From positions 1-64,000 of the forward strand of contig JAJSRW010002114.1 in NCBI GenBank assembly GCA_022414725.1: a DNA stretch of 64,000 nucleotides, in the 5' to 3' direction. The stretch's first letter is position 1, and each line of letters starts with the position of its first letter. This DNA comes from Microglena sp. YARC (taxonomy: Eukaryota; Chlorophyta; Chlorophyceae; Chlamydomonadales; Chlamydomonadaceae). The position numbers were made by a program, and so were the translations under genes. This document shows positions 919 through 47,009 of the stretch, in pieces. The notes under the pieces were generated by a model. The model saw nothing but the letters and a program-made list of their open reading frames with translations, had not been told where the DNA came from and did no database searches.

Positions 919-1925
919 TAGAGTTCACGGTGGGATTCATGTTCAATCTCTTGCGTAGTACAAGCAGACTCGGGGTCGGGATCGTCGGCGACTTGATTCA
1001 ACTCGTCAGGGTCAACTGGGGGTTTCGCCCAAGCAAGTCTCTGAGACGCCCTAAGCGCAAGAAGGCGGCGGAAGGTACAATAAACGTCGTAGTACTCTAT
1101 CTTATGTCCGCACGACCCGAGCGTCTATGTACTTCTGGCACTCGGTGTGATTGCGACGCACTTCCTCGATGCTCTGTTCTTTGTTGATGTCGCGGATGTT
1201 GACGATATACGGGAAGGTTCGAAGGACGCGGACTGCGCTCTCGACCTTGGCGAGGAAACCGGTCTCGTGGAGTGAAGGAGTCCCTAGGAAATGGGACCGC
1301 ACTTGCATCCCGTCTTCACTGTGGCCCTGGGTGGCACCACATCTTCATGTGAATGGAATCCGGGGAAGCGCGCACGGATGAGTTTTGTCCCAGTTTCTGG
1401 TTCTTGAACCGCGTAATGTTGGTCGTAGGGCGCGGGTACATGCCTCGGGATAGGTCGTAAGGTATCGTCATTTGGTCGACAGAGGATCCCAGAACGGACA
1501 CCCAAGTAAGTTGACGATGGAGACGTCTTCCGGGAAAGAGACTCAAGAGGTACGCCGCGAACGTCGACCGGCCTCAGTCTGAAGAGGGGGTCGTTGGCGG
1601 ACCTCATGCTGAACAGAACTCGTCGGTCTCTAGAGGGAGGATCTCACACGCACGACGGTGCGACCTCGGCATGTGTCGCTCATGAACACATTGGCAGAGC
1701 TGAAGTCTCGCTTATCAAGCTTGATGTGGACACCGCGGGTTGAAGAGAAGTACCACTCGTACCATCCAGAATAGCTGGCACGTGCTCCGTTGTCTACCAC
1801 GATCACGTTTTCGTACCCGAACAACTCGCGTAGTACGTGATAAAGTCCTCTATCAAGAGCTTTCCATCTTTAGTGAGAAGCACAACCTTGGCGAGAGACT
1901 TGGTCGCAGAGAGACTTGTTTATAG
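919..1925 (-). pseudogene. Decayed family-2-like glycosyltransferase
   Basis: Protein-like segments follow one another on the minus strand but in different frames. Near 1905-1830 lies VVLLTKDGKLLIEDFITYY, followed at 1824 by FGYENVIVVDNGARASYSG. That resembles the Glyco_tranf_2_4 / GT92-type pattern of an E-[ED]-x-hydrophobic-x-x-Y/H helix followed by a DNG motif that helps bind the nucleotide-sugar. Further segments run to about 919 (for example HETGFLAKVESAVRVLRTF near 1260 and LALRASQRLAW near 1040). At least four frame changes separate them, so no full-length product is possible. Giant viruses often encode such enzymes to glycosylate virion proteins. The family call rests on the two N-terminal motifs and is an inference. 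Confidence 0.45.
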
Positions 1926-2635
1926 CGAATTTTGTCGAAGACGTTCGATGTGCGTTGTTGTGGGCTGCATTGTGATTGTGATACACACATTAAGATTTTG
2001 GAACAATTAAATGAGGTGTTTTTGAACGAACTTTTTTTATTTACAGAAACTCAGCTTCCGGCATTCGAACCTGGAAAATATCGCAATAGAAATGTCAATA
2101 GCACGAGGAAGCACACCAACACAATAATCCCAATGTCGCAATAAATTGCATTGGCTTTGTTCGTGTTTGTTGTTTTGCGTACTGATCACAAAAAAACACA
2201 GATGTTTGAAACAATTGTGTACAGATTGTCCCAAAATTAGTTGAGGACAAATGTATAATGTATTTTAAAGCCGCGCGACATGTAAGACATCCCTTGTGGA
2301 TGACGAAGAACATAGAAAAAACATTCATACAGGAAACGTGTGCATGATAGCATCTTACCGCATTCTTCTTTCGGTCGGATCAACGCAATTTCATGTCAAC
2401 CCGAAAAAACTTGTAAATGGACACTCGCTGAATGCATGAATATACCGGTGTCAAAGGATCACCTGCAGGTTTGGTACTCGGGGATAGCGACGTGATCATG
2501 ATCACACTGAACGAGTCCGGGAAGTTCAAGCGCGTGTACGCGGGACGCGAGCGCGTTGTTCTGTTGCGAAGATTGATTTGATTTGTCAAAAAAAGGTGTA
2601 AAGGAATAAGAGTTTATGTTTATTGAGTCGTAGAC
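1926..2635. other. Gene-poor stretch with a transposon-end fragment
   Basis: No confident gene. At 2228-2250 the sequence reads gtcccaaaattagttgagga, close to the ends of a small palindromic repeat seen again at 27748-27808 and 31912-31945. A 69-codon minus-strand frame at 2380-2589 is protein-like but unrecognised. Confidence 0.35.
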
Positions 2636-3528
2636 GTGCGGTTTGATCACAAGATTTGTACAATCTCGAATTTCACAATGGCCATTTCTGCATGTATCAT
2701 CTGGCGTAAACGTATGGACGAGTACGGATACTACAAGAGCAGTATCATGCGTCTGGATATGCTGACGGAACCTGCGGCCACCCGAGGATTGAGGCCATCC
2801 GACTTTTTCGATGAGAAGTTCAAGGTCAAGTTGATCCGCAGAACGGAGATCCAGATGCGAACAGTGTTCAAACGCATTGTGTGTGTTATCCGAGGACTGC
2901 AGCGTCACGGCTTTCTTCGCCGCACCCTCGATCGCCAACCCCCGTGCGCGCTGGCTCAGCCAAGGGTATCTCGGACTTTGATGACGACGAGTTTGAGATC
3001 CACGCAACATGAAAGACATGGAGGACTTCGAATCGAACATCCCACCCATACAACGAAAAGAAGCAAAGTCGTGACACCCATTTCGCCCACTTCCGTGAAG
3101 ATGCCGCCACCCCCCCCCAAAGAAGAATAATGCGGCGGTCTTCCAAAAGAAGAACGACACGGTCGTCCATGAGAAGAACGACACGGTCGTCCAAGAGAAG
3201 AACTCGGAGGTCGTCCCAGAGAAGAACGACACGGTCGTCCAAGAGAAGAACTCGGAGGTCGTCCCAGAGAAGAACGACACGGTCGTCCAAGAGAAGAACT
3301 CGGAGGTCGTCCCAGAGAAGAACGCGGTGGTCGTCGTTGACAAGTACAACACGCTGATGATGACAGCATGTCCATCATTCTTCCAAGTATTCGTGCATCG
3401 ATGTTGGCATGAGTAGCGCAGTTACATCCGCTCATGTTTGGAGCCGATAACAACCTGTTGCAGGAGATGAAGACAATCACGTCTTTGTTGCGCGCCATCG
3501 TGCTCAAGATGGGTGTAGACCCCTCGTA
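2636..3528 (+). pseudogene. Decayed charged, repeat-bearing protein
   Basis: Not recognised. The plus strand encodes a plausible segment (PSDFFDEKFKVKLIRRTEIQ near 2795), then fragments in other frames (KGISDFDDDEFEIHA, then MKDMEDFESNIPPIQRKE). A run of C at 3109-3118 is followed by eight-residue repeats alternating EKNDTVVQ and EKNSEVVP. The repeat frame joins the preceding proline-rich frame only if the C tract changes by one base. A last segment (LMFGADNNLLQEMKTITSLL, about 3435) ends at a TAG at 3526. Several frame changes make it a broken gene. A long minus-strand frame over the same region is an antisense product of the repeat. Confidence 0.45.
3147..3330 (+). repeat. 48-bp tandem repeat (two 24-bp half units)
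   Basis: About 3.3 copies of a 48-bp unit made of two related 24-bp halves, gagaagaacgacacggtcgt and gagaagaactcggaggtcgt plus four bases each. The length is a multiple of three, so copy-number change keeps the plus-strand frame (EKNDTVVQ/EKNSEVVP). Coding repeats of this sort recur in several genes of this window. Confidence 0.85.
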
Positions 3529-3600
3529 GAGTGTCTGTCCAACGGTCGCTGAGTGCGACGACTATGTACGTAAAAACGTACAAGAGAAGTGCGACACCAT

Positions 3601-3668
3601 TACAGTCAACGGAATACTAAAATGAAACCGCTTCGTGTACGGCACATTTTACTGTTCCGCCGACTGTA
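3601..3668. mobile_element. 68-bp miniature Tc1-type element with TA flanks
   Basis: TA, then CAGTCAACGGAATACTAAAA, then about 20 bp matching the inside of the right end of the 14.3-kb copy (gaaaccgcttcgtgtacggc), then ATTTTACTGTTCCGCCGACTG and TA. Both terminal inverted repeats of the Tc1/IS630-Fanzor family are present with almost nothing between them, in inverted order relative to the full copy. It can only be a passenger of a transposase in trans. Confidence 0.7.
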
Positions 3669-3671
3669 GTG

Positions 3672-3727
3672 GAAGTGTGGCCATACCACATGAGACGTCT
3701 CATTTTATATGTTCCGTCGAGTGTACA
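3672..3727. mobile_element. Solo right end of the same Tc1-type family
   Basis: gtgtggccataccacatgag followed by cattttatatgttccgtcga and gtgtac parallels the right end of the 36.7-kb copy (gtgtggccgtacactccaga ... catttatatgttccgccgag tgta). It lies directly next to the miniature element. Confidence 0.5.
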
Positions 3728-3944
3728 GTATCCTTTACTTGAATAGCATGGTGTATGGGATAGCTGTTGACACAACTGCAATGGACATCATCATGTTGCG
3801 ATATGCCTTTGAAACCGCAATCCCTCGTGTAGGGTACTCGAAGAACCTCTTTTTCATCATGATTTTAGCAATGACAAACCCTAAAACTGTCAAAGATGAG
3901 CGTTTGCATGCCGAAGTGATGATCATGTCGGTGATGAAGGCGCT

Positions 3945-4165
3945 GTCAATGACAACGTGGTTTTGATGACTTGGCATATGTGTACATGACAATCACCAGT
4001 GCTACAAAAATGATAACCTGGATGATAATGTCGAGTACCAAGAAATGAGGAGGAGCTGACTAAACTTGCCTCTGGGTGTTTCAAAGGCACATCGTCTAGG
4101 GCATTCGGGGTCTTTCAATGTGTTCACATGGACCTTGCGCATGTAGTGCTCCTGCAAATATGTAT
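3945..4165 (-). pseudogene. Possible small membrane protein, frameshifted
   Basis: Minus-strand frames give RKVHVNTLKDPECPRRCAFE (about 4140-4080), then in another frame a hydrophobic segment DIIIQVIIFVALVIVMYTYA (about 4030-3970) followed by a basic tail and a stop. The soluble head plus one membrane anchor is typical of small giant-virus virion proteins. The frame change lies near 4055. No family is recognised. Confidence 0.3.
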
Positions 4166-4192
4166 TCAGTGACGTACAATATCAAAGCTGTG

Positions 4193-4615
4193 TTATTTGT
4201 TCGTATAAGCTTGATCATGTAAATGATGTGAACCTGAACTGATGGATGCACGATTCGCCAGTATTGTCAAGAATCCTTGGGACGAAAGACGCGTCGACCC
4301 ACGTTTGCTATACAAAGCAGAGCGACCAGCTTCGTCATCGTCCTCGTCCACACATTTGACGCTCAGTAATTGTCCATTATGCGTTCCACCATACGCTGAA
4401 AAGTCAGAAAAATCTTTCCAAGATATTTGAGTAAAGTCCAATCGTAGGGTAAGAAATCGTTATCAAATTCTTGCGAACGTCTTTCAGAGATCCGCAGAAG
4501 TTTCATACGAGCGACCGATAAGTTGTCACGAACTTTATTGAGCTCTTCTCAAGTTGGGTCTTCAACAATTTCGAAAACGCTTCACCACCACCTTTTTGAA
4601 GACTATATTCTACAT
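4193..4615 (-). pseudogene. Decayed gene of unknown function
   Basis: Protein-like minus-strand segments in shifting frames: GGGEAFSKLLKTQLEKSS (about 4590), RDNLSVARMKLLRISERRSQ (about 4530-4460), and a frame running to 4193 with VDEDDDEAGRSALYSKRGS. The middle segment is helical and charged. No family is recognised, and at least two frame changes break it. Confidence 0.35.
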
Positions 4616-4649
4616 ACGGACCACTCCCTTTTTGACCCTTTCTGATCGG

Positions 4650-4909
4650 TCCAAAAAAACTTTTTTTATGGGGCTTTGTGCCTTCTATGAGGGGTTGTCT
4701 ATAAGGGTTACTAAGATAGTCACCCGTCGCCTTCCATTCTGGACTTTTTTTAGAAATTTTATAGCAGCTTTTTTTTCTTTGCTTTTTTTTTTTTTTTTTA
4801 TGTTGTTAGCTTTTCTTTTTTCTTTTTTATCTTTTTTTTTTGTTTTTTATATTTTTCTTTTTCTTCATCTGTTTTCTTTGTAAAATGCCTCCAAAAAAAC
4901 TTTTTTTTT
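4650..4909. repeat. T-rich low-complexity tract
   Basis: Long runs of T and TTTTC/TTTTA on the plus strand (notably 4769-4800 and 4815-4860). The sequence ccaaaaaaactttttt occurs at both borders (about 4650 and 4891), suggesting a local duplication. No gene is supported. Confidence 0.6.
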
Positions 4910-7227
4910 TCAATATTCTCCGTCTTTATTTACTCCACCAACTCCACCTGCTATGTTGGCTCCATCGACTACAGGGGATCCATCTCCTTCAGCGGCTCCA
5001 AGTGCTCCATCGACTACAGGGGCTCCATCTCCTTCAGCGGCTCCATCGGCTCCAGGGTCTCCAGGGGCTTCATCGGCTCCAGGGGTTTTAGTGTCTACAA
5101 CCGGCTCCACCACTGATCCACGCACCTGATCCACCACCTGCTCCACACCTGCCTCCACCATCTGCTCCACCACCTGATCCACCACCTGCTCCACCACCTG
5201 CTCCACCACCTGCTCTACCACCTGATCCACCACCTGATCCACCACCTGATCCACCCTGATCCACACTGATCCACCACCTGATCCACCACCTGATCCACCA
5301 CCTGATCCACCACCTGATCCACCACCTGATCCACCACCTGATCCACCACCTGATCCACCACCTGATCCACCCACCCTGATCCACCACCTGATCCACCACC
5401 TGATCCACCACCTGATCCACCACCTGATCCACCACCTGATCCACCACCTGATCCATCACCTGATCCACCACCTGATCAACCACCTGATCCACCACCTGAT
5501 CCACCACCTGATCCATCACCTGATCCATCACCTGATCCACCACCTGATCCATCACCTGATCCACCATTGCCTTTAAAACTATATCCAATGGAGCTTCCTA
5601 ATCCAATTTTTGTTGTAGTAACTTCGGGACCTCCTGGATATTGTGCAGTTTGAGAAGACGGTATCTCTTCTCTCAAAGTTACCTTATTGACAACTTCCTT
5701 CACAATACGTTCTTTTCCACCTTCGACCACTATGGTGTTGTTGGACATATCATAAGACCACGGAATGAAGGTTTTGTCATCCTTGCCTCCACTGATGTTC
5801 TTGAAACGTCGAAGGTTGATAATCATGTTGTACACCTGATCCACTTTGTCTTGGTTTACTGTGTATTTCTTAAATCCTTCAAAAATATCCAAAGGTGTAT
5901 CGACAAAAGGCCGCTACGTTTTTGCAATTTCGAGCAAAATGATATTGGGATCGCTGATATTCATAGCATTTACTCTCTCTTTGATACCATCGTCAGTCAG
6001 CTTGAGGTTATGAATTAGCGGAATCACTGTATACCCAAATATTTTGGTTACACTTAATATGCGTTCTATATTGCTGGACACGTTCGTGATAGCCTTGGTT
6101 AGTTCGAGCAGAGAATGGTAATGAAATTTGTACTTGATTTCATTAAATCGATCTAACCTTTCGTGTTCAGGGAGTGTCTTAAAATTCTCGACTGACATGG
6201 CAAGGGCTTTGAACGTCTCGGAAGAAAAAGCATGGTGGGGGAATGCATGCAAAGATATTTGTTCTCCACCAAGCAAGTATGATATGTCTGACTCAAGTTG
6301 AGTTCGTTGCAATCGCAGGTTATCATACAACACAGACGATACCAGCGTAGATTGGTATTGTTTGAATACACCGTCATATCTCTGGATTTTCAAGTCACCT
6401 TTATCAATAACGAAAGCGATCAAATCTTCGTCCGTATTGATTGTAGTCCAATCAATGCTACTGACGAGTTCTAGTGAATGTTCTAGTGTGTCGAATTTGT
6501 CTATGAAATCTCTTAGGAATACGATGATACTGCTGATTGTGTCTACGATTATATTTTGATCGCCGTTGTCAGTTGCCCGCAACCGGTATAACATCAGTCG
6601 TCGCAGCACCCGGAACCAAATATAGTTTACAAAGTACCCCAACTTATGTGAATCATTCCCTATGCCATCCAAGAAGGTTGTCCAAGCCCCAAAGGTTTCT
6701 TCAGATATCGGAATTGAGAACTTCGCCTCATTCAAGATGGACGAAACACTTTCAATACTCTTGTCCGTTATACCTGTACCCATATATAGATCATGAGAAG
6801 CAATACGTTCCAATATATCATTCGGTGAGTATGAATCCAACACGCGCTTAAAACGCAATATCATTACAGGGTCGATCTTATCAACAACAACCGGTTTGAG
6901 GTTGTTAACACCACCACTCGATGACGGGTGTTGCTGACTTTGTCGATTCTGAAGATCGGAATGATCATCGTTAGAGGTAGATGTAGAAGCATCAGTCGTG
7001 TTCGAAACAACAGCTTCGCCAGGGCCAAGTCTAGGGTCACCTCCAGGTTCAGTGACAACGGAATGGTCAAAAAAAGTGCTGGTAACAGAGCCAACAACCG
7101 CTCCAGTGTCAGGGGCAGTGTTAGTAACAGCGCCAGCAGCCGCTCCAGGGTCAGCAACAGCGCCAGTGAAAACTCTAGAGGTTACTTCTCCTATCTTTTT
7201 GCGTTGTTTCGCATCTAATTTACTCAT
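4910..7227 (-). pseudogene. Large viral protein with Gly/Ser-repeat tail, broken
   Basis: The start is taken at the second Met (MSKLDAKQRKKIGEV, 7227) because the first 19 codons are AT-rich and the basic N-terminus fits it better. Residues 1-120 are low-complexity (Ala/Gly/Thr, then Ser/Asn). From about 130 to 430 the protein is globular and helical. An in-frame TAG at 5914-5916 interrupts it, and the same frame continues immediately (RPFVDTPLDIFEGFKKYTV). It then enters a GGSG/DGSG repeat made by a 12-bp unit, where a G-to-T change creates a TGA at 5476. Coding resumes through the repeat to a Pro/Asp/Ala-rich end at 4910. The family is not recognised. A matching membrane-protein gene is divergent from it at 7372. 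Confidence 0.55.
5100..5565. repeat. 12-bp tandem repeat (ctgatccaccac)
   Basis: About 35 near-perfect units. On the minus strand one frame reads Gly-Gly-Ser-Gly and the others read Asp-Gln-Val-Val or Trp-Ile-Arg-Trp. The Gly/Ser frame continues the upstream viral protein. The other two frames are open but are repeat artefacts. Confidence 0.9.
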
Positions 7228-7371
7228 GTCCCTGATGGAAAAATGCCTGAACACGATACTGTAACATGATACACATTTTTTCAAATGAAAGCGACGATAA
7301 CATAAATGGTTGCACGCTTCAATGCATACAAAAAAAAAGTTTCGTGTAAGTATTCAATCTGTACTCTGTAA

Positions 7372-7881
7372 ATGATGATTTGTGAATTTGGCGGCAACGT
7401 GATTGCCCCTTTGGTTGTAGGAGCCATGACTGCGGTCTCGTACGCGCTCGTCACTACTAGCAATTCTATGGCAAAAGTGTCGAACACTAGGGATGACATC
7501 AATCTTCAGCATAATACCGCCACTAGCCATTCGGGGTCGAACAACAACGTTAACACTTATAACGTTAACGGTGGGACAAAAAACACGCGTTCGGGAAGAG
7601 CTTCAATAGTACTTAGTACTATTGCAATATTCATCCTTTCCGCGGGACTGACGTACGGGTTAATGGTGTATCGGCAAATAATCGGTGACGATGGATCTGC
7701 AGTAACATCTACGACACACGATAGTGATGCCTATAATTGACCTAAATCTGTTGTTGACTCTACTATCTTTGAGGCTGCTGATGATCGAATTAGTTTTGTA
7801 GCCAATGATGGAGGTGTTTGTTGCAAGTCCGTTCTTGATGAAATGATGAAGTTCGCGGATACGAGTGGGTCGGTTCCTTTC
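7372..7881 (+). pseudogene. Two-TM viral membrane protein with in-frame stop
   Basis: A 123-codon frame has a hydrophobic N-terminal segment (about residues 10-28), an Asn/Ser/Thr-rich loop that could be glycosylated, and a second membrane segment (VLSTIAIFILSAGLTYGLMV). It stops at a TGA at 7738-7740, but the same frame continues without another stop for 46 codons to a TGA at 7879 (SVVDSTIFEAADDRISFVAN follows the first stop). The simplest reading is a nonsense mutation in a protein of about 169 residues. Programmed readthrough is possible but unsupported. It lies divergent from the Gly/Ser-tail gene and 68 bp upstream of the next small gene. Confidence 0.5.
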
Positions 7882-8182: not shown

Positions 8183-8270
8183 AATATTCAATGCATCCAC
8201 CACATGTGGGGCAACCGCTGATCTACCGACGGCGGAACAGTAAAATGAAACATATATCAGATGGAAATAA

Positions 8271-9186
8271 ATGTACGACATCGCCGTTAGAAAATTGGCT
8301 TTAAGAATGGTTTCTGACTTGGGTGTGTTAAAAATTTCTGTGTTTACGAACATCAGTCGCTCTACTCTGTGGAGGTGGAAACGCTTTGGTGTGAATCGAA
8401 AACGACGTGAATTTGTAAGCAAACTTTTTGAGACGAACAAGGATTTGTTAAAATCGTTTTTATTGTCAACTAAATGCACAACCGCAAGAGGTGTTGTTGC
8501 ATTTTTCAAAAGCACTCACAATTTACGATTATCAACTAAAACAGTGTATCGTTTCATTAAACTCATTGGTTTTACAAGAAAAAGGAGCAAACTCCGTGGA
8601 CAGTGTAAAGGGGACTTAGTTCCACTTGTCAATGAATTTTGTAGTAGATACAAGGAGACAATCAATGCTGGGAAAAATTTTAGTATCAGTTGACGAATGT
8701 GGGTTTAGTGAGCGTCTCAAGCCACATTATGGGTATTCCCCTGTAGGCAAACCGGTTATCGTTAAAACTACTGGTGGGTGGGTACACCATAGTTTGTTGA
8801 TGGCAGTTTTTTCAGATGGTCGGAAGGAATTCGTTGTGAAGAAAGGATCTGTGAAGAAAACAGATTTCGCTGCATTTATTGACTCGTTGAGTTTGTGCAA
8901 TAATCCAGTAGTAATAATGGACAATGCCAGTATCCATAAGAGATTGGTCCTCAGGCACCCCGTCAATATTTTTTACACACCCCCTTACAGTCCAGAATTC
9001 AATGCTATTGAGCTGTGCTTCGCTAAGGTGAAGAAGGACTTTCGTCGATTGAAATACATACCAAATGATGCAAAGACGCATGTGTCTGATATGATTTCAT
9101 TAGCATTAAGCAACCTCACTGATAAAATAATGATGGGTTGTTTCGAACACGTTTGGAACATTTATGTGTATAAAAGGATTAGGTGA
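8271..9186 (+). pseudogene. IS630/Tc1-type DDE transposase, one frameshift
   Basis: The first frame (8271-8693) carries an N-terminal helix-turn-helix, ISRSTLWRWKRFGVNRKRR. The second frame (from about 8667) carries the catalytic core: D in SVDECGFSERL, D in VVIMDNASIHK and E in YSPEFNAIELCF, the DDE triad that cuts and joins transposon ends. Between the last two acidic residues I count 29 residues, where Tc1/mariner/IS630 enzymes usually have about 34. The frame changes by +1 in gggaaaaattttagt (8667-8682), so no single protein is made. A canonical programmed -1 shift would land in the wrong frame. The combined length of about 304 residues is normal for the family. Confidence 0.8.
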
Positions 9187-9203
9187 CGTATTTATTATGG
9201 AAG

Positions 9204-11543
9204 ATGGAAACGAAACCCCAAACAATAGCGCATTTGAAGGATCTACTGAAATTGGCTGATGTACCATACACTTCAAAGTCCAAGAAGGACGACCTTGTCC
9301 GTTTATGCGAAGACAATGGTCTCATCCCTACAGAGTACAAGGCGGTGGAAAAGATGTGCGTCGTGAAATGCGCTCTGAAGAAGGCAATGAATCTCGACGA
9401 GGAGGAATTCGGTGGATTCAGGGGGCATGTTGATCAGCTCGTCAATGTTGTGAGCCGCATGTTTCGGCGTTCGAGTCTGGTATTGGCGTTTCATGTCACG
9501 AGGCTCATGGAGGGCGACCTGCCGATTCCAGATATGTACGAGATGAAGGATACCTACTGGAAGAATTGGCTAAGGATCGGAGTTGACGGCGTCTTTCCAG
9601 ATGAAGAGAGTAGAATTTCATACGAATCCGTAAAAGACGTAATCGGGAAGGTACTTGATAACGACGACTCTGAATACATCAAATCCTACCCTCTCTATTT
9701 CGACCAGGTTTTGAACTATGCCGGCCACACATTGAGCACTGTCGTGTCGAACAACGCATGGGTTCCTTTGGTACCTCGTCTGATCCGCCTCACTAAGGCT
9801 ACTTTGAAGGCACTGGAAGCTCCGAATACCATCCGTGTGTACGACGTGATGCGGGTAATACGGCAAGAAGTGCAGGAGATGGAATCTTGGCCAGATTCTG
9901 TTCAAAAGTACGTCCGTGAGGTTCGGGCCAGGCTGAAAGTTCCGGATGGAGATCGACTTTATGATGACTACGGAAAATGTGTGGACTTCCAGACTATGGT
10001 ACGGTTCAATTACTGGATGCAGACCCGATTGGAAACTATGGGGGAACGTCGTATTCGGTTGATGCCCATCTTCAGCGTCCATCGTGTGCATGTTCGACTT
10101 GACTTGAAGACCCTCGTGAAACTGTTCAAGCACAATTTCCCTAAGGACCCTAACATCGTCGAGCTTTCCAAGTGGGAACATGTAAAGAATCCCGGCGACT
10201 TCATGTTGCCCCAGAGGCCTGCACAGAAGAAGAAAAGATCATGTGGTCCGGGTGAATGGGAGGCATACAAGTCGGCCCTGAAGCAGTACGATGATGACGT
10301 TAAGGATATCAAGGCTACTGACGAGTACAGACATGCAAAGGGTTTGTATGACACGCTTGTGAACGCCCGAAAAACAGTCGCAGGTTCCTTCTTCAGAAAA
10401 CCACCTGTCAAGAATGGGTGGGTATTCGACTGTAGCATCTGTACTGACGGAGTCTCCTTGAGCATGCAGTACAGCAAGAAAGTACAAGTTCGTGTGTCAG
10501 ATCTTAAGAAGACCAGTATGAGGTCTCGTGACAATGAAGGTTTGAGCGTCGCAGAACAGTATGACCGTAAACTCGAAACGACATTGACCGAGATGGGTAT
10601 CGTCGTTTTGGGCGTGGACCCAGGAAGGAGCAACATCGCGACAGTCACGTATCTTGCAAAGGGGAAAAGCAAGACATGGAAGCTTACACGCGGAGCTTTT
10701 TACCACAAGTCTGGTATCAAGAAACAGAAAAAACAGCAAGGAAAACGTTTCTCAGACAAGATTCCTAGATGGGAGTCTCTGCGTGAAAATGGAGCAGCGT
10801 TGAGTACATCCAGGAAGGATGATATCTCGGCTTACTTGAAAAATTACGCTACGTTTTCCGACGCGTGGTGGAGGATGGCACTCCGTCGCAGAGAGTCCCG
10901 AGACAACTTTCAGAGGTACATTGGCAAGCGCAAGGCTATGGACTCATTTTGGGCAGAGATCAAGCGCAACATGAAGTTGGATCATCCTGACCTGAGGGTT
11001 CGCATCGCATATGGTTCTGCAATCAAGACGATGAAGGCTACCGGACCAGGAGAGGTAGCTGTGCCTACGGGATCTATGTTCGCTTCCTGCAAGCGCCTCT
11101 TCAAAGAGGAGGTTCATGTGACAGATGAGTTCAAGACGACTCTCATGTCTTGGGAAACCGGTGCCAAGAAGGAATGTGTTTACAAGATTCCAAGTGTCCA
11201 AATAACCACGTAAGGTCAGATTCGTCTAGGTTACGAGTTGTTGGGTCACACCCCATTGAAGGAGACTCCAAAGGTCTCTTATCGCGACCAGTTGGCGGTG
11301 AGGGTGTACTGCACACGTAAAAAAATCCAAGAAAAACACAGGAGGGGTGGCTTAGCCCCCTCTCTTATCGACAACAAATCGATCAAGCGGTACCCAGAGG
11401 TACGAGGACTGCGATTCTCTCCAGAAACCAGCACTTACTCGGACTGGGACCGCTCCTCTGCTCTCACAATCGCAAGGCTGCACTGCATGGAACTGTTGGG
11501 TCAAGTGAGACCGCTTCCATTTTGCAGGGATGCGTGTTGTTGA
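9204..11543 (+). pseudogene. Fanzor (TnpB-like RNA-guided RuvC nuclease), nonsense-interrupted
   Basis: The start is the ATG at 9204; an upstream GTG at 9183 is less likely. The N-terminus resembles a SAP-type DNA-binding helix pair (HLKDLLKLADV...SKKDDLVRLC). The RuvC-like nuclease core follows: motif I VVLGVDPGRSNIATV with catalytic D at about residue 472, and motif II VHVTDEFKTT with E at about 642. An in-frame TAA at 11211 then ends the frame, and the same frame continues to 11543 with motif III SDWDRSSALTIARLHCMEL (D at codon 749). Fanzors are eukaryotic relatives of TnpB that cut DNA guided by an RNA from the transposon end. The CxxC zinc-finger cysteines common in TnpB are absent before motif III (RGLRFSPETSTY). 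Without readthrough the product lacks the third catalytic acid. Confidence 0.85.
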
Positions 11544-11560
11544 TGGGCTACAAAAAAACA

Positions 11561-11665
11561 TGATGGTGTTCCACTGCAATGTGGGTTTCTACACCATAAG
11601 GTTACACCATAAGGTGTACCGTACACTCCAGAAAGCGGTTTCATTTTAGTATTCCGTCGAGTGTA
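11561..11665 (+). ncRNA. Candidate omega-RNA scaffold at the Fanzor 3' end
   Basis: Between the Fanzor stop and the right transposon end. Hairpin 1 nests GGTGT(11565-69)/ACACC(11591-95) around CCAC(11571-74)/GTGG(11581-84). Hairpin 2 is TACACC(11603-08)-ATAA-GGTGTA(11613-18). Both stems recur in the same place in the copies at 14658-14710 and 36662-36717. Loops differ and hairpin 2 of the third copy has a changed but still pairing stem (CACAC/GTGTG). In known Fanzor and TnpB systems the guide RNA scaffold derives from exactly this 3' region, with the guide reading into flanking DNA past the end. Transcription is not shown by sequence alone. Confidence 0.5.
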
Positions 11666-11728
11666 CCGACGACACGACACCACATTGAGATGTGACCTGA
11701 CCGTATCATTTACAGTCGGAGTCGAGTG

Positions 11729-11765: not shown

Positions 11766-11870
11766 TCATGGTTGTGCACTGCATGTGGAGCCAACCTTAG
11801 CAACACGTGTTGTTGTAGCTTAATGGTCAAATCACCGCCCTTACAGACACAAAATATGGGACGCCTTGAA
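11766..11870 (+). pseudogene. tRNA-like remnant with duplicated leader
   Basis: gttgttgtagcttaatggtc followed by aaatcaccgcccttacagac looks like the acceptor, D-arm and anticodon-loop part of a tRNA with anticodon TAC, but no matching 3' acceptor or T-arm follows. It is preceded by tgcactgcatgtggagccaa cctt, nearly the same leader (tgcactgcatgtgaaatcaa cctt) that precedes the intact tRNA at 12112. That suggests a duplicated and decayed tRNA unit. Confidence 0.3.
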
Positions 11871-12111
11871 CCCAATGGACGTCGTCAGAAGCAAAAGAAG
11901 GTTCTTGGCAGCGTCCACGTCTTGGTTCCTTGTTGCACCACAGCGCACATTTGATACACGACAGTGCAGTACTTTGTGGACCTTGACGTTCTTCACAACC
12001 GTCTTCTTGTATTGGCGCGTTCAAATTATCAAAATATTTTAGTTACCTATTATTGTAGAGGTTGGTTTCACTTCACGTGGTTTTGCACTGCATGTGAAAT
12101 CAACCTTTACA

Positions 12112-12184
12112 GTTTCAGTAGCTTAATTGGTTAAAGCACTGGTCTTATAAGCCAGGGATTGCGGATTCGAGTTCCGCCTGAAAC
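12112..12184 (+). tRNA. tRNA-Ile (anticodon UAU)
   Basis: A complete cloverleaf can be read: acceptor GTTTCAG/CTGAAAC (12112-18 with 12178-84), D-stem GCTT/AAGC, anticodon stem CTGGT/GCCAG with loop CTTATAA (anticodon TAT at 12146-48), and T-stem GCGGA/TCCGC around TTCGAGT. There is no intron and no encoded CCA. The UAU anticodon decodes the rare AUA isoleucine codon. Giant viruses often carry such tRNAs, but a host origin cannot be excluded. Confidence 0.92.
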
Positions 12185-12194
12185 ATAAAAACAG

Positions 12195-14322: not shown

Positions 14323-14753
14323 TACAGTCGGCGGAACAGTAAAATAAAAATCCCAATAAACGGTATAAGGCGTCGACAGACGTTATAGTGTATGAGTGGA
14401 TGGTCCTACAAAATGGCCCGTCCAGCAAAGAAACCTCCTTTCATGACGCATTGCACATCAACAAAGACCCCGTGTTCTTTTGGGCCACGGTACCGGGGAA
14501 GAGGCGATCGCTTAAGTGCGGCTGGTCCTTCAATGGACACTCTCGAAAGTACAGACAAAAGAACGATACGGAGTCTGCAGGATGGAGAGCCGTGATCTAA
14601 AAAAGAACCACGATATTCTCGTTAACATCTTGCAATTTGTTGATTCAAAATCATATTGGTGTTCCACTGCCCCGTGGATTTCTACACCATTAGGTTACAC
14701 CGTAAGGTGTGCCGTACACGAAGCGGTTTCATTTTAGTATTCCGTTGACTGTA
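14323..14753. mobile_element. Non-autonomous Tc1-Fanzor family element (copy B)
   Basis: TA then CAGTCGGCGGAACAGTAAAA at the left, TTTCATTTTAGTATTCCGTT GACTG then TA at the right. The 3' 110 bp (14650-14753) match the structured end of the Fanzor element. The interior 14398-14600 is not Fanzor. It holds a segment (about 14440-14560) that recurs inverted at 36165-36270, carried by copy C. It encodes no recognisable protein. Confidence 0.7.
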
Positions 14754-21116: not shown

Positions 21117-21235
21117 GACATAATGACAATATCCAGTTGTCTTTGAAGGAATGATAATTACACAATAACCAAGCTAAGTCTGGTTCAGTAGATTCGCAAT
21201 GGCATATGATATGAATTCTGGACTGTAAGGATGTG

Positions 21236-21338
21236 TGTACACCCAAGTCAGCGACCATTCTTAACGCCTATTTTCTAACGGCGATGTCGTACATTTATTT
21301 CCATCTGATATATGTTTCATTTTACTGACTGTAGGGAC
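21236..21338 (-). mobile_element. Solo left end of the Tc1-Fanzor family
   Basis: The complement matches 8240-8335: cagtaaaatgaaacatatat cagatggaaataaatgtacg acatcgccgttagaaaa, then the first codons of the transposase. Identity is high over about 75 bp and falls beyond. The right flank keeps gactgtag, the family tip. Confidence 0.8.
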
Positions 21339-29376: not shown

Positions 29377-29450
29377 TACAGTCGGTGGAACAGTAAAATG
29401 AAACATACAATATTTCTTAAATAAAGTGGGACACACCTTATAATCCTGCT
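29377..29450. repeat. Fanzor-family left tip fused to the palindromic repeat
   Basis: tacagtcggtggaacagtaa aatgaaacata is the left tip of the Tc1-Fanzor family. It runs directly into aaataaagtgggacacacct tata, the second small repeat. Neither has a matching partner end here. Confidence 0.6.
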
Positions 29451-36149: not shown

Positions 36150-36763
36150 CTCCGGGAAACAATTCGGTACGTTCGAGAGTGCCCATTGAAGGACCAATCG
36201 CACTTAAGCGATCGCCGGTACCGTGGCCCAAAATAACACGGGGGCTTTGTGCAATGCGTCATGTAAGGAGGTACACTCGGGGCACAAACCCTCAAACGTA
36301 CTACGAGTTCTGTTTGGGGGTCATGGACACATGGATTAGCTTGGGAGCCGCCCAAGTCTTCATCGCACCACCGGTACCAGTCGGTGGTGAGGGTGTACTG
36401 CACCCGTAAAAAAATCCAAGAAAAACACCGGAGGGGTGGCTTAGCCGCCTCTCTTGTCGATGTCAACCAATCGATCAAGCGATACCCTGAGGTAAGAGGA
36501 CTGCGATTCTCTCCAGAAACCATCACTTACTCGGACCGGGACCGCTCCTCTGCTCTCACAATCGCAAGGCTGCACTGCATGGAACTGTTGGGTCTAGGGA
36601 GACCGCTTCCATTTTCCCGGTGCAAGACTGCGTGTTGTTGACGGGCTACAACAAACATGATGGTGTTCCACTGCCCCGTGGATTTCTACACCATAAGGCA
36701 CACACTCCGGTGTGGCCGTACACTCCAGAAAGCGGTTTCATTTATATGTTCCGCCGAGTGTAG
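36150..36763 (+). mobile_element. Partial Tc1-Fanzor element (copy C)
   Basis: From 36388 to 36763 it matches the Fanzor C-terminal coding and 3' end at 11290-11664, including motif III as YSDRDRSSALTIARLHCMEL with both Asp and the Arg intact. The frame is open 36384-36641. The structured end is at 36662-36717 and the right tip ends at about 36763. The left part (36165-36270) is an inverted copy of sequence inside copy B, and no left tip is found. It keeps a DRD motif where the long copy has DWD, so the two copies have diverged separately. Confidence 0.75.
36662..36717 (+). ncRNA. Candidate omega-RNA fold, copy C
   Basis: GGTGT-CCAC-loop-GTGG-ACACC is preserved (36662-36692). The second stem reads CACAC-actccg-GTGTG (36699-36714), different in sequence from the other copies but still pairing. 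No promoter evidence. Confidence 0.4.
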
Positions 36764-38118: not shown

Positions 38119-39150
38119 TCATGTGCTAACTGACTCGTCTTGCTCTGGGAACAAGTTGGCACGCAACCCAACGAGGGCTAAATCTAACTTCTTGGTCCTC
38201 ATCAGCCCTTTTACTGTTCCTGCACTGATGCAGCTTTCCAGAACCTTCTCCTTGCAGGCCTCGAACTCGTCCTCAGGCCAATCTGCGGCTTTCTTCTCGC
38301 GATATGTCTGGAGACACGTCTCTAGCTTTTGCATCATTTCCTCACTGGGCTCAGCAGGGTTGTCGCGAAACTCTGCGTCAATGTCTTCCTGAACCAGTAC
38401 CGCCGTCCTCACCCTTGTTTCATCATCTGCATCAGTACAGGCTTCGAGACGTGATAGAATAGCCTGCTCCGTTTTTGCAAACGTGTTCAAACGCCATGCA
38501 GCAGCCCAAGCTTCTGAGTGATACAGTCCAAGCCAATGGCGTTCCTCCTCTCTAGCAAAGCCGCTAGCATGCCCGAGGCATCGCCAGCTTGCATGCACAT
38601 CACATAGTTGCCAACGGAGCTAAGCTCCCGCACAAAGTGACGGAATTCGGCGACACTTCTCCTGCGGTATCCAACTTGTTTGGGACTCATCGAGCAGCCG
38701 CTAATGTCGGGGCGTCCAATGGCACTTTTCTGTGCGTCAATAGGCGGTAGGAAGACCGTGATGGCAGCGGCAAGACCAGAAGAAGAACTGGAAGCTTTCG
38801 AGGACGGGCCCGCTTGTCCCGCACCTTGATGCAAGATCCCAGAGATGGCGATGCTGGTGGAATGTGTCTTGAAGTCTGCCCCCATGCGTGTAATGTGGGT
38901 AAGGCGAATGTCAGCCACGCCAGCTTCTCTGAAAGCCACAAGGAACCTGCTGCCTTCCTCTTGGTTGGTGTACACGACCACATGGCACACTGAGGCAAAC
39001 TTCCGATTCTGGCCTGCTAAGTTCCGCAGCATGTCGATCACATCAGTCGAACTCCAAGAGTCTTCATCGACGAGCCACAACGGTCCCTTTTCATCGCCAG
39101 TGAGACAGGGGTCGATGATCACCAAGTCGATCAGTTTGCCAGGCACCTGC
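38119..39150 (-). pseudogene. Transposon accessory protein, one frameshift
   Basis: Coding begins after a splice-acceptor-like tttactcttgcag (39152 region) with VPGKLIDLVIIDPCLTGDEK and continues through RMGADFKTHSTSIAISG and SPKQVGYRRRSVAEFRHFVR. Near 38508 one G is missing compared with copy 3 (58520, QKLGAAAWRLN), so the frame changes before ILSRLEACTDADD and a Lys/Glu-rich helical C-terminus ending QDESVST. No family is recognised. It could be a second transposition protein or a cargo regulator. Upstream exons are not identified. Confidence 0.55.
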
Positions 39151-39341
39151 AAGAGTAAACGAAATATGTACAAGTCACTTAGATTATGGGTTGGAAGACA
39201 AGTTGAACAACGTGATGCTCCCGACTGTGATCGGAAGGATAATAATGATCCATTCTACCCTCCCGATTATAATCGGGAGCATCCATAACAATAAGTGACC
39301 TAACCTCGTTCCATTGGACCCTGTCTAGGTTTGAACCTGCT

Positions 39342-41851
39342 GTGAAGGTGAGGAGGAAGAGGGGTGCACCCGCAGTGTTGAGGGACAATTTCAACGCTGC
39401 GATGAAATCTCTCGTAGATGAGTATGGGGAGTCAATGCCGCACCAGACTTCATATGCTCCAGGATCTAGAGGAAGGAAAAAATCGAAGGTCATGCGCCCT
39501 TTGATTTTTTTACATTGCGGCATATTTCCAAGCAAGCAAGCTGTCTTTAGGGACATGAAGAAGAACGGCATGGTTCCTCCCAGAACATTATACAGCAGTT
39601 TGCGTAAACTATGGCATGCACATTGGTGGAACGTGAAGATAAAGACTTGGAAGCCTTTTGCCAAGTGCGACGACTGCGTCAAGTACCGAGCCAGACTCCT
39701 GACCACTACGTTTCAGCCAGCAGTTGATGAACTTCGTCAGAGTCAGGCTGTGCACCGTAATCAGATTTCCATTGGTCGGCGTAGGTATGACATCCGTGAA
39801 AAACTGTCTGAACAGTATCCGAAGCTCTTCTTGCACGCATCCGCTGATTGGTTATTGAGCTTTGCCATTCTACTCGCAGTCCATCAATCTGACTATATCA
39901 TGCTTCCAACATTTCTTCATCCGGGTCCTTGAAGAAGAGGGGCAGCTTCCACCGTATTGCTTCTTGCAAATGGACAACGCGGCAAAGAACAACAAGAACG
40001 CTTTCATGTTCGCATACTTGTCCTTGTTGGTTGAGATGAACTGGTTTAAGGAAGTGTACGTCCATTTCCTCCCTCCCGGACACACACATAGCAATCTTGA
40101 CCAAAAGTACTCTGTGATCTCGCAAGGGTTAAAGAACATGGAAGTGTACACCCTGGACCATCTGATGGGCATTGTTGGTAACTTATTCAAGAGAATGGGC
40201 CCTTACACAAGGCAAGACGTCGTGACCTCTATAGGGGACTTCTCCGCTGTCCTCCTAGACAACGTTTACAAGTTGTTCGGTCATGGCACTAGCACCGTCA
40301 AAGGAGTTAATTGCCGTTTACACGCATTCAAGATAACGAAAGGTCCCAACGGGAGAGTCGGTAAGAATACTTGATATACTGATATTTACAAATTAAATGC
40401 TACCGTGCGTGTATGTACTGTCTGCACAATGCTCCCGATTATGCTCGGGAGGAATATGGGTGTGCCATGTCCTCATTGATTTACATGTGCAGTCTTCAAT
40501 ATAAATTAAATGATACAAAGGAAGTTGTACCTAGGACCTAGGATGTATTATCCAAGGGATGCTCCCGAGTATAGTCGGGAGGAATATGGGTGTCCTAAAT
40601 GATTCACTAATATACAATACATGTTTGCACACCAACAATTGCAGGGGTCTATTACAAGGAGTATGACGAGTCAGGATCTTGGAGAGGACAGTGGGACAAT
40701 GAAAGCTGAACCTATTTACGTCCTCCAAGGCTTCCCACTGGTGGACACCAGAACAGTATTTAAGGAAGCCCCCAAGATCAAGATTGAAGAGCTCGAGAAT
40801 ATCGAGGCAAACTGGGCGGCTGTCTGGAAGACTATTCATAACGAGAAGCCCGGAGGTGACGTCCTTGCAGGCCACATGGCCGATGGTCCTGTACAAACCG
40901 CCGGTGACGACCGTGCAGGACCCGTAGCTGATGTCCGTGTACGACACGCAGCGGAGGACCTTCTAGAACCAGCAGCCGATGACCAGCAGCCGATGGATGA
41001 ACCAGCAGCCGATGGCCCATCCCATGCCCAGTCCTTCAAACATATTGCCGAGAAGCTTCGTGAAACTTGGGAAGCCAGCAATAAGTGGTGGACTGATTTC
41101 TTCAACGTTGAGAAGAGTTATTGGAGCACTCAACCAGATAATGCTGTGACTGGGGAGTACCCGAAAGACCAACATTTTGTCGACTTCCCATCGGAGTTGT
41201 CAGCAACCAGTCGTGTTCTGACACAGTCTGAGAAATCAATGGCCAAGCGCTTGATAGCAGCATTGGATGACTTGTCCATGGATGTGTCAGACATTTTACC
41301 TGCAAGTAACGAGATTGCCAAGACTATGAACGTCGCACACACTTTGGAGACTAATATGGAAAGGCCAGAGGAGGAGGATGTGTTGTACTTATATTCTTCA
41401 CAAGGGACGAAGCCGGATAGAAGAATAGCCTACGAGCCCACTACTGATTTGGTTGTTGGTCATGTCGCTGTGGTCAAGGTACTAATGGATGACTCTAGCG
41501 GAATGAGAGGATGGGACGTGGTGGAGGTCAAATCACTACCAGTGAATGGAGAAGTGAAATTGTGTGTATTTAAAGCCCTTGTACTCTGGGGCTCAGAAGT
41601 TGGTGTACACTGAAACACAATACCCAACTTGGCCAGAAGATTGGATGGACCACAAGCTTGTGCCTATTACCGTGGGGGTTAGGAGAAAAGCAACATGGAC
41701 GGGCGATATTCCCATTGACGCATTTCAATTTAGCTGCGAACCCACCAAGGGTATGAAGATCCAGAGAAAGTACCACACAAGCATGCTCCTAGCTTGTCAA
41801 TCCATTGAGAAGGACACCAGGGCAGAGGCTGTGCAATCGGATGGAGACTAG
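39342..41851 (+). pseudogene. Transposase-type gene with intron (copy 1)
   Basis: The core reads CFLQMDNAAKNNKNAFMFAY and VHFLPPGHTHSNLDQKYSVI, a D-N...DNKN...GHTHxxxD pattern shared by a large group of eukaryotic transposon proteins I would place near DUF7869-type sequences. An intron of 284 nt is predicted at 40361-40644 (gtaaga ... ttgcag): it joins NGRVG to VYYKEYDESGSWRGQW in frame. Compared with copy 2, about 280 bp are deleted at 39848, one base is inserted at about 40703, and a frameshift occurs at about 41555. The 3' exon encodes an acidic region ending in TAG at 41849. Not functional as it stands. Confidence 0.65.
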
Positions 41852-43543
41852 GCAGACATTGCTGAGGAGGAGGAGATGGAGGAGGAGGAAGATGGGGATG
41901 GGGACATGGAGGAGGAGAAGGAGGAGGAAGAGGAGGGCGAGGAGGGGGGGGAGGAGGAGGAGTAAGATGTTTGACACATAGCCGTTTTTTACTAATGAAT
42001 TATACTTACGATTTTTATTGTAAGATGTAAAAGCTGAATTCTGCCTGCCGACTTATAACCGTCCGCTTTCCCTTTATTTCTTACAATTATAATTGTAAGA
42101 CACGAATTGATGTTAACACCTTTTGTTACAAAATATGGCATTTCAACGTTGTAACATTCGCAATCTGTACGTTTCTCCGTTTTTCAAGCTCATTTCAAGC
42201 ATATTTTGTCAAAATTGACTACAATCTTACGATTTTTATCGTAAGATTGCATTTGGAAAGCATCAAAAGACCCCCAAAAAGTGATCGTAAGATTGGAAAT
42301 CCGTTGGGAAGCAGGAACGCCCATTCTATAACAACAGATGTCCCGTACACTCCAGAGTCTTTCTCCATGGAGCTGGACACTGCGGATGCTGTAGACGTGG
42401 ATGTACATGAGAGGGTCTCGGCGGAATTTTTCTTCCCAGACGAAATCTTGGAAAAGATCGTGTTATCATGGTCCACCTGCAAGGGTGATGAGATGTACAT
42501 GGGGTACCTGGTGCGCCTGATGTGCGTGAGCAAGCAGTTCAAGGCAGTGGTGTCAAACATGTCGGAGCTATCGGTGAAGATACCTTCGTTTCCAGCCGGC
42601 ACCCAGTGGAGTCTTGCCCATATCTCCTTTGCGAATTTGGTGCATGTGTCCTGCTCTAATAGCAATTATGTTGAGGACATCGAGATGTTCGCCGCACTCC
42701 CCAATCTGAAGAGGTTAAACATATCGGGGACGTCAGTCGATTCCCTCGTTCCGTTTAGGACCGGTGTGTGCAGGAACACGCGTCAGGATCTGTACTGCGC
42801 AGACATGCATTTGATGTCCATTGCAGGGATAGAGAGCCTAAGCCAGCTGCGTTTTCTGGACATACACAACACAGATTACTCCACATCCGTAGGAGAGTTC
42901 CATATGCCATTGCTGACCGTGCTGAACACCCGTTCATCTCGTAGAGTTTTCGATTCGGATTTCCCATACCACACATGCTTCCCATCGCTTGTAGCATTCA
43001 TGCAAATTTCAAATACTTGGGGGAATTTGTTAACAGACATTCAGTCTCCTGAGCAGTCCGATGTTCGCATCGAGTGTACCACATCCTTCACATTTGTTTC
43101 CAAAAAATGGTGTAAAGACATTCCAAGTCATACAGGTTGTGGATAGAGTGAGTGATCGGGACTTCCGTTTTTGGTTTTATGGCAACATGGATGATGATGA
43201 TGATGATGGCGGTTACGACTCATATAATGTTGAGTTGAGTTTGATGCGGCTCTACACTGAGATGTGTGACCGATCCTTGTTTCGGACATACGATAGCCTG
43301 GGCAAGTTATTTGAAATGTCCCAAGATACCCTTGTATACGGCACGCCGTGCAGATTGATTGTGAATGATATCATGAAATGTGCCTACATGGAGGGTGGAC
43401 GTGCGCGGTTGCTGAAGGTGGTAGTGTTCCTGTTCGGAGTTGATGCATTGAAGAACAACAGGATCTACAACTTTTTATCGGTTAAAGAATTCGCAACATG
43501 ATTTCTTAAGTTTGTTTGTGTAAAAAGCACCTCTGACCCAACG

Positions 43544-45499: not shown

Positions 45500-47009
45500 A
45501 CCCCTTAGAGCAGGACCCAGATCTCAACCACTTACAGTGGCGGAGGTAAGAAGCTAACAAATGAGAAGTCTCAAGAACAAAAAAAAGGGATAATAAATTA
45601 CGGTGCCACTAAGCAGTCCAGGGCTTCCTGTCTTGCTCTTCTACAAGTAGAAAGATAGTTGGCTAGGTTGCTCCAAAAAGACTTAGTGCCATTTCCATTC
45701 ATAAAGGTTCTGACTGTGGAATCGCAGAATTCCACATTCCATACGGTTAAGTCGGTATCCTCATGGACATGCCTATAAATATCTGTAAACAGATTCTGGT
45801 AGCGGAGGCGAATATCATTATAAAAAGGGCAATCAAACGTATGCATTTCATCCTCAGTTTTTTGGAACCCACACATTTGACAGTGTCTCATTGAGCGAGG
45901 GATGTGTGCTCTATCCACCACCCTCATTCTTTCTGTGTTCAGCCAATGGTAACCCATTATAAACTGTGCTATAGAACGAATCTGATCCTGCTTATGTAAG
46001 GCGGATGTAAAGGGAATCAAGCCATTCTCATCATTGCTGTTGGCTGCGAACCATTTTTGGTATCGGAGGCGTTTAAAGCCAACCCTTCTCTCATCAGGGA
46101 TGTCTCTAACTGCATTGGTGTCACTTGGGTACTTCATGACTCAAAAACTTCAGACATAATACCTTCGACATCGACAGCCTCCAAAATGTTGATGTTTTTA
46201 CTGGATCCTAGCTTGTGGAGAGCACAACGCAAGTCATGAACCCAGCCAGTGTTGGAGTCAAAAGATTCCTCAAGAGCCATTCTAATGAGATCCTCAGGTT
46301 CTTTATGTATGGTCTTGTTCCAGAAGCGCAAAGCTTGTTTAAGCCAAGCAAAACACAACGGGGTTCTACCCAGCTCTTCCATGATAATATTAGATGTAGT
46401 AGATTGGCAAACACCCAACATTTGTTTAAGTATACCTCTATGCCATTTCTCACAAGCATGGTCATTTGAGATAAGTGTGTTGTTCAGAATAGAAGGAGCC
46501 CACACCTCACAGCCAAAATTCAGGATAGGTTGTACAAGAGAATCAAACAGGTGGGTGAGAATATCAATATTGTATATCTCCATAGTATGGCATCGCCTAC
46601 GAAGCATGTGGTGTGCCTTTTGGGCCTTAGTGAGCATCCTAGAAAAAACAGCTTTTGCACGATTGCTTGAGTCACCATCCACAAAGAGGGATCCCAAGTA
46701 GATAAAAGATAACTTTGTAGAAAGTTGTGCTCCATCATAGACAAATTTGTAATCAGGATCCATGCGGGCCTCATCACAGAATTGTTTGTTGAAAACGACA
46801 ATCTCAGTTTTCTTTATATTCACAGCCATCTTAGTAGCCTCGCAGAAATCGCTCGGGCAGTCAAGCATCGCTTGCATATCTGCCGGGGATTCTGCCATTA
46901 TAGCTAGGTCATCAGCATAAAGTAACAGTTGCAGAATCTTTCCCCTAAGCTCAGCCCCTACATTTGGGAGCTGGGATTGGAGGAACGATTCAATTCTATC
47001 AATGAACAG
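45322..47009 (-). mobile_element. LINE-type retroelement, copy 1, about 1.69 kb
   Basis: Minus-strand element. The 3' end carries a (TTACA)n tail at 45322-45342, and the 5' end is at ctgttcattgatag (47009). CGAATAC flanks it (45315-45321 and 47012-47018), a probable target duplication. It encodes the C-terminal part of a reverse transcriptase and a zinc knuckle. Its sequence is nearly identical to copy 2. It sits at the very end of the virion-type gene. Confidence 0.8.
45598..47009 (-). pseudogene. Reverse transcriptase fragment (LINE type), copy 1
   Basis: LLLYADDLAIM (catalytic YADD motif, about 46920), then KMAVNIKKTEIVVFN and a long thumb/connection region, ending with CQMCGFQKTEDEMHTFDCPF, a CxxC-H-C zinc-binding motif of zf-RVT type, and a stop at about 45598. 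The fingers and early palm (upstream motifs 0-A) are missing: coding starts at LFIDRIESFL. A deletion near 46130 (tacttcatgact, versus tacttaaacctccatgact in copy 2) shifts the frame. Confidence 0.75.

Follow-up and report, generated by a model that had tools for sequence, protein, structure and literature searches.

A decayed IS630/Tc1-type transposon with a Fanzor1 nuclease in giant-virus-like DNA of Microglena sp. YARC

Components and condition of the element

The window analyzed here is a 64,000-nucleotide (nt) stretch of Microglena sp. YARC DNA (contig JAJSRW010002114.1, positions 1 to 64,000), part of a contig of 69,674 bases (C695) in an assembly of 568 Mb and 2,390 contigs. A real mobile element occupies positions 8224–11665: inverted ends of 28 bp, set at TA, enclose an IS630/Tc1-type transposase and a Fanzor1-type nuclease, and its right end is RNA-like. 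The terminal inverted repeats (TIRs) and the insertion at TA with TA duplication are those of the IS630/Tc1-mariner group. It is highly likely to be one decayed member of an IS630/Tc1-type DNA transposon family that has multiple copies in a eukaryotic genome. The original prediction, made from the letters alone, described such a transposon with both termini, and both are present. The features are as follows.

8224..8251, + strand: left TIR, opening with the TA target duplication; a collinear copy on contig C1 ends at the same place
8271..8693, + strand: N-terminal part of the transposase (helix-turn-helix), first frame; HTH_23 at 2.9e-5; aligns to the first half of intact relatives
8626..9186, + strand: catalytic part of the transposase (DDE), shifted frame
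9183..11213, + strand: Fanzor1 nuclease up to an in-frame stop; likely start ATG at 9204, RuvC-I D at 10617–10619, TDG motif, alternative RuvC-II E at 11127–11129
11211..11213, + strand: in-frame stop codon splitting the Fanzor frame, which continues to 11543
11214..11543, + strand: C-terminal part of the Fanzor past the stop; RuvC-III D at 11448–11450; aligns with the C-terminus of relatives
11560..11665, + strand: predicted right-end guide-RNA scaffold (right-end RNA, reRNA, or omega RNA) of three stems, in the last of which the element's end and the TA are paired
11638..11665, − strand: right TIR, closing with TA

The predicted DDE transposase was borne out by a match of the catalytic part to PF13358 (1.4e-25) and by the D-D-E triad of IS630-type transposases. 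Against the IS630 profile NF033545, the broken piece scores 86.6 bits, the cut-off of 100 being set for a whole protein, and two intact relatives clear that cut-off with 102.4 and 122.4 bits. The second and third acids are separated by 29 residues, as counted by eye in the alignment, and the usual spacing in IS630/Tc1-mariner transposases is 34; no published use of the term DD29E was found in the literature search. A PDB sequence search with one transposase relative gave no match. A programmed frameshift was ruled out, as intact relatives of about 300 amino acids (aa) are single frames.

The nuclease carries the fingerprint of Fanzor1, namely DPG at RuvC-I and an alternative E at RuvC-II (PMC10711439). 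The D and E of the window stand in the right columns, and the relatives show DPG in 75 of 78 and the alternative E in 74 of 78 sequences. The TDG motif of the WED domain is present, and a relative shows the Fanzor1 fold. The claim that all three RuvC acids lie in one coding string held for the acids, which are at their aligned columns, but not for the string, as the stop at 11211..11213 precedes the RuvC-III D. A PDB sequence search with the C-terminal piece of the Fanzor gave no match.

The C4 zinc finger before RuvC-III is absent. There is no CxxC in the Fanzor pieces of the window, and none between the RuvC-II E and the RuvC-III D in 73 of the 74 relatives that span both columns, the exception being P0078. 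This sequence and a second positive control, a Fanzor of the same genome (L002), show two CxxC each, and therefore the test for a zinc finger works. The finger was termed strictly conserved by Bao and Jurka (PMC3627910) and present in "many" TnpBs and Fanzors by Yoon et al. (PMC10711439). No prior report of a finger-less Fanzor clade was found in a literature search of limited coverage, and such a clade of Fanzor1 is new as far as the literature covered goes. A zinc finger held to be typical of TnpB and Fanzor can thus be lost clade-wide with the catalytic residues kept.

The N-terminus of the Fanzor (9204–9320) has a weak HeH/LEM match (8.6e-4, under the Pfam cut-off), possibly a DNA-binding extra, and one relative (P0017) has PF12949 in its precomputed domain list. 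The genome also holds at least 150 matches to the Fanzor/TnpB zinc-finger domain (the best 150 of 1,259 candidates), some in frames of more than 600 aa. The control L002 looks like a Fanzor2, so that two Fanzor types, both numerous, occur in one genome.

Since both of its genes are broken, the transposase by a frame change and the Fanzor by an in-frame stop, the copy at 8224–11665 is dead and would depend on proteins of other copies for any movement. The description of a complete carrier therefore stands for the two ends and two genes but not for their intactness. That the breaks are sequencing errors in an intact copy is very unlikely. The transposase frame change does fall in an A/T run, as this alternative would have it, but at the Fanzor break a stop interrupts a frame that is the same on either side, and a 98.3% identical sibling on contig C3 is broken elsewhere. 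A genetic code with reassigned TAA was ruled out: TAA closes 5 of the 12 frames inspected, including a full-length DUF5901 frame, so it has no amino-acid reading here.

An identical 8-base string (TACCGACG) occurs at the left start of the element (8224–8231) and across its right edge (11664–11671). Sibling left ends carry TACAGTCG where this copy has TACCGACG, and two changes make the window end match its flank. This match may be due to chance, repair, or another duplication.

Gene linkage, copies, and the giant-virus-like setting

A search of the genome returned at least 66 Fanzor matches, one of them the window's own copy and the other 65 ranging from 79 to 97%; these are the best 66 of 1,569 candidates scored and represent a lower bound. 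Sixty-one of the 66 lie on C1–C5, contigs of 46–195 Mb each that are taken to be chromosomes. Open frames of at least 780 aa with no stop, counted by eye, were found in 33 of the 66 listed matches, and therefore intact-looking Fanzors exist. Among the best 150 of 1,465 transposase candidates scored, a same-strand match ends 0–43 bp upstream of the Fanzor in 31 of the 66 (the window's included), with a gap of 21 in 18; for the other 35, linkage is not readable from the listed transposase matches. Because a listed transposase match lies just upstream in these 31, the sequences indicate that transposase and Fanzor are one element.

Full copies agree with this view. A copy on C1 is collinear over the entire element at 91.6% identity, its transposase broken and its Fanzor frame open for 801 codons, and both genes of the C3 sibling are broken at positions other than those of the window copy. 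Furthermore, an outside relative keeps the junction: P0079 is a transposase fragment (87% over 68% of the query), and when the DNA behind its last residues is read in the next frame, it can give the N-terminus of P0001 at 17 of 17 residues; among shuffles, the best value was 0.56. The alternative that the two genes belong to separate elements and are adjacent by chance had some room in the window itself, where both frames are broken and linkage is not judgeable. It is refuted, its probability now negligible, by the near-constant spacing in 31 of the 66 listed matches, the collinear full copies, and the same junction elsewhere. The original prediction of one element carrying both genes thus survived the search for further copies that it had called for.

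Twenty unplaced contigs, sampled at 10 kb each, yielded no copy of the element. A collection of viral contigs held no relatives by Fanzor, transposase, Fanzor alignment, DUF5901 protein, or TIR pattern; the transposase alignment found only one remote locus there (L010, 35%).

Contig C695 carries eight copies or relics of the element, that is, seven further copies, deletion derivatives, or relics besides 8224–11665. They include the following, and a possible left end at 36272 was left out of the counts.

3601..3668, − strand: 68-bp deletion derivative, both ends only
3690..3725, + strand: right-end remnant
14323..14753, + strand: 431-bp non-autonomous copy with a left end of 27 nt, a foreign middle, and a right end of about 107 nt that retains the complete RNA scaffold; no Fanzor
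21212..21333, − strand: relic, left end fused to an inner piece of the transposase
29377..29404, + strand: relic, left end only
36376..36762, + strand: relic (88%), Fanzor C-terminus (RuvC-III part) continuing into the right end

The original prediction also spoke of matching non-autonomous copies close by, and the 431-bp copy is of this kind. In the relic at 36 kb, substitutions by codon position number 8, 6, and 3, and the piece is too short for a test of constraint. The foreign middle of the 431-bp copy (14433–14555) recurs reversed, at 82%, at 36164–36272 beside another relic, as a second family accompanying the transposon family.

The contig encodes DUF5901, DUF7197, several SNF2/ResIII-type helicase frames, FtsJ, and an S74 chaperone domain, a set which we take to be giant-virus-like; none of the searches named a virus. 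Among eukaryote proteins, a relative (EukProt label, 16 members) matches the DUF5901 protein at 96% over 79% of its length, and in the same genome this protein has long matches of 83–97% on C1, C3, C6, and unplaced contigs and shorter ones on C5. On C3, one stretch aligns with the window in pieces across 1338–7622 (91.5–94.4%), with an insert of a reverse transcriptase (RT) element. Because such DNA recurs on large contigs, it is most probably endogenous and exists in several copies, provided that the large contigs are correctly joined. The predicted viral setting is thus supported by giant-virus-like gene content but, as far as can be seen, not as a free virus genome, the counterparts being on large contigs of a 568-Mb assembly. 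Within the homologous stretch, one site is empty in the window and filled on C3.

3563..3564, no strand: empty TA target with C before it, filled by the 98.3% identical element in the homologous C3 stretch

The two elements (98.3%) are closer to each other than the DNA around them (91.5–97%), and the movement therefore probably postdates the divergence of the viral copies.

Viruses as vehicles, as the original prediction suggested, are only one possibility. An element of viral origin, brought into the host by giant viruses and then spread, is unlikely in our estimate. The giant-virus-like gene content of the contig and its eight copies or relics would suit such an origin, as would one relative on a 148-kb contig. 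Fanzor1 in Mariner elements of algal viruses has also been published (PMC3627910). However, 61 of the 66 listed Fanzor matches lie on C1–C5, and what the C1 copy's brief flanks (195 and 153 bases) share with the viral contig is limited to short repeats. A host transposon jumping into endogenous viral DNA fits as well as a virus serving as vehicle.

Right-end RNA scaffold and left-junction mark

The last 106 nt of the element fold as three stems. Stem 3 is formed by TACACTC and the terminus GAGTGTA, which brings the target duplication into the scaffold, as in Fanzor1 reRNAs (PMC10711439). Folds of single copies gave z-scores of −2.2 to −3.4. The consensus fold of three copies reached −34.5 versus −12.3 for shuffles (standard deviation 2.8), none of 1,000 shuffles being as good, with both-sided changes in 5 of 31 pairs, all in stem 2. 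An alignment of 15 distinct right ends, from 17 taken, has 254 of 255 cells paired and both-sided changes in 7 of 17 pairs, 5 of them in stem 2, and none of 500 shuffles folds as well. Thus the right end is conserved as a structure, like the RNAs of obligate mobile element–guided activity (OMEGA) systems, and the predicted structured 3′ end is confirmed. Covariation of a scaffold in a many-copy family is new as far as the literature covered goes. At the gathering score, Rfam matched only tRNA. By analogy with published reRNAs, the guide part of the RNA would come from the right flank.

11666..11685, + strand: right flank, would-be guide part of the RNA, given by position only (by analogy with PMC10711439)

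The first 12 nt of four right flanks have no second exact match within the window.

At the other end of the element, the base before the TA is C at all 22 readable left ends: six on C695, the C1 copy, 12 of 12 in a first batch of copies, two in a second batch, and the C3 sibling. The left TA of this sibling now reads AA, and its empty counterpart site reads CTA. In the contig background, C precedes 18% of 6,594 TAs. The copies are regarded as separate insertions because their flanks differ. At right ends, G follows the TA in 11 of 25 of the main set, and 12 further ends show 3 G, 2 C, 2 A, and 5 T. A Fisher test of left C (20 of 20) versus right G (11 of 25) gave 3.9e-5; its left set comprised the six C695 ends, the C1 copy, the 12 of the first batch, and the C3 sibling, and its right set, counted by eye, 18 of the first batch, five on C695, the C1 copy, and the C3 sibling. 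The second-batch ends (12 right, counted by eye, and two left, both C) stand outside the test. Windows with no readable end (7 of 19 left and 1 of 19 right) were dropped from the first batch; the second lost 2 of its 14 right windows, 2 of its 5 left windows, and L090, a left window reading as a right-type end. Since C stands at 20 of 20 left ends and G at 11 of 25 right ends, a symmetric preference for CTAG cannot explain the pattern. A left-only CTA mark in a many-copy family of one genome is new as far as the literature covered goes, and it suggests 5′-CTA as the predicted target-adjacent motif of the Fanzor, the TA part being the target duplication.

Guided retention, known systems, and further features of the window

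Taken as a whole, the best explanation, and a probable one, is a decayed copy of a multi-copy IS630/Tc1 transposon with guided retention by its Fanzor; for guided retention by itself, we put the chances at about even. In the proposed mechanism, the transposase would bind the 28-bp ends, excise the element, and paste it into a TA, which would be duplicated. A transcript running through the 3′ end of the Fanzor and on across the right terminus would provide a scaffold RNA whose last stem is the transposon end with the TA, and a guide copied from the right flank would follow it. The loaded Fanzor would most likely recognize 5′-CTA with the right-flank sequence, which is the empty donor or sister site, and cut there. 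Repair of the cut site would then copy the element back or into the empty allele.

Several points weigh against this explanation. First, transcription, RNA guidance, and cleavage are predictions from sequence. Second, the C-TA rule was noticed after looking, left ends were readable in only 12 of 19 and 2 of 5 left windows of the two batches, and a transposase with an asymmetric target preference would give C-TA too. Third, the fold changes in part when the piece of the window copy is lengthened (11538–11665) or 20 nt of flank are added, and the right-end sequences are related, so the paired cells are not independent events. With the 15 sequences, RNAalifold retained stem 2 and the inner portions of stems 1 and 3 (for stem 3, the inner helix) but dropped the outer pairs of stems 1 and 3. 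The reasons are that stem 1 has different letters in the 79% subfamily and that some copies carry another terminus, CTGTA, whose pairing partner is also changed; only for the main form is pairing of the terminus supported.

The element might instead be an ordinary host IS630 transposon with the Fanzor as a passenger, the C-TA reflecting only the target preference of the transposase. We consider this rather doubtful. Only 31 of the 150 listed transposase matches precede a listed Fanzor, so that transposase-only copies may be common (both lists are partial), and some right ends carry G (10 of 18 in the first batch), as a CTAG preference would give. However, the left C and right G counts fail a symmetric preference, while a lopsided one would fit; in addition, half of the listed Fanzor matches keep the long stop-free frame, and the RNA scaffold covaries.

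A bolder form of guided retention, which we hold to be less likely than not, is that the finger-less Fanzor1 clade may have shaped the insertion landscape: copies would persist only at a left 5′-CTA, where the empty site can be cut and restored, and short copies bearing the scaffold would act as extra guide sources. If true, this would be a genome-scale footprint, in a eukaryote, of Fanzor-driven retention or of homing between alleles or endogenous viral copies. At least 66 Fanzor matches of one family, half of them with long frames, together with a covarying scaffold and a left-only CTA, make the idea of retention testable in one genome.

Fanzor1 in Mariner elements, including those of giant viruses, has been known since 2013 (PMC3627910). 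PGv-1, which sits in a giant virus genome, and PUl-1 (Bao and Jurka 2013, PMC3627910) likewise combine a Mariner/Tc1-type transposase, Fanzor1, TIRs, and TA duplications in one element. Compared to PGv-1, which has a GIY-YIG nuclease and a single copy, the present element has many copies and no third gene: the Fanzor frame directly follows the transposase, and the 31 linked listed matches leave at most 43 bp. The zinc finger described there as strictly conserved is absent here. The Fanzor1 proteins of Spizellomyces punctatus, Parasitella parasitica, and Guillardia theta (PMC10432273, PMC11423790) share only 14–16% identity in structural alignments; SpuFz1 has a CCCC zinc finger whereas the present clade has none, and the weak N-terminal HeH/LEM match is a further difference. 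The reRNA of Fanzor1 elements from ascovirus and other insect viruses (Yoon et al. 2023, PMC10711439) is similar in its three stems and in a scaffold that includes the TIR and target duplication; those elements are of another transposon type, and the RNA here is known by prediction and covariation alone. An IS4 element of endogenous giant viruses of Ectocarpus (PMC13236599) is also a Fanzor transposon whose insertions vary between endogenous viral copies, but it has 8-nt duplications and is confined to viral DNA, whereas the present element is of IS630 type, inserts at TA, and is spread across large contigs.

Other features of the window were noted. An inverted duplication at 38119–51475 contains DUF7869-type frames, one frame with no Pfam match, and RT frames, with the RT element found again on unplaced contig L017 and within the C3 viral stretch. 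On the minus strand, 4910–5588 has long low-complexity frames of Gly/Ser and VDQ repeats. Two 30-mers at 11769–11798 and 12078–12107 are 87% identical (TGGTT..AACCTT); the second precedes a good tRNA-Ile(TAT) gene at 12112–12185, and the first precedes a stretch that looks tRNA-like by eye.
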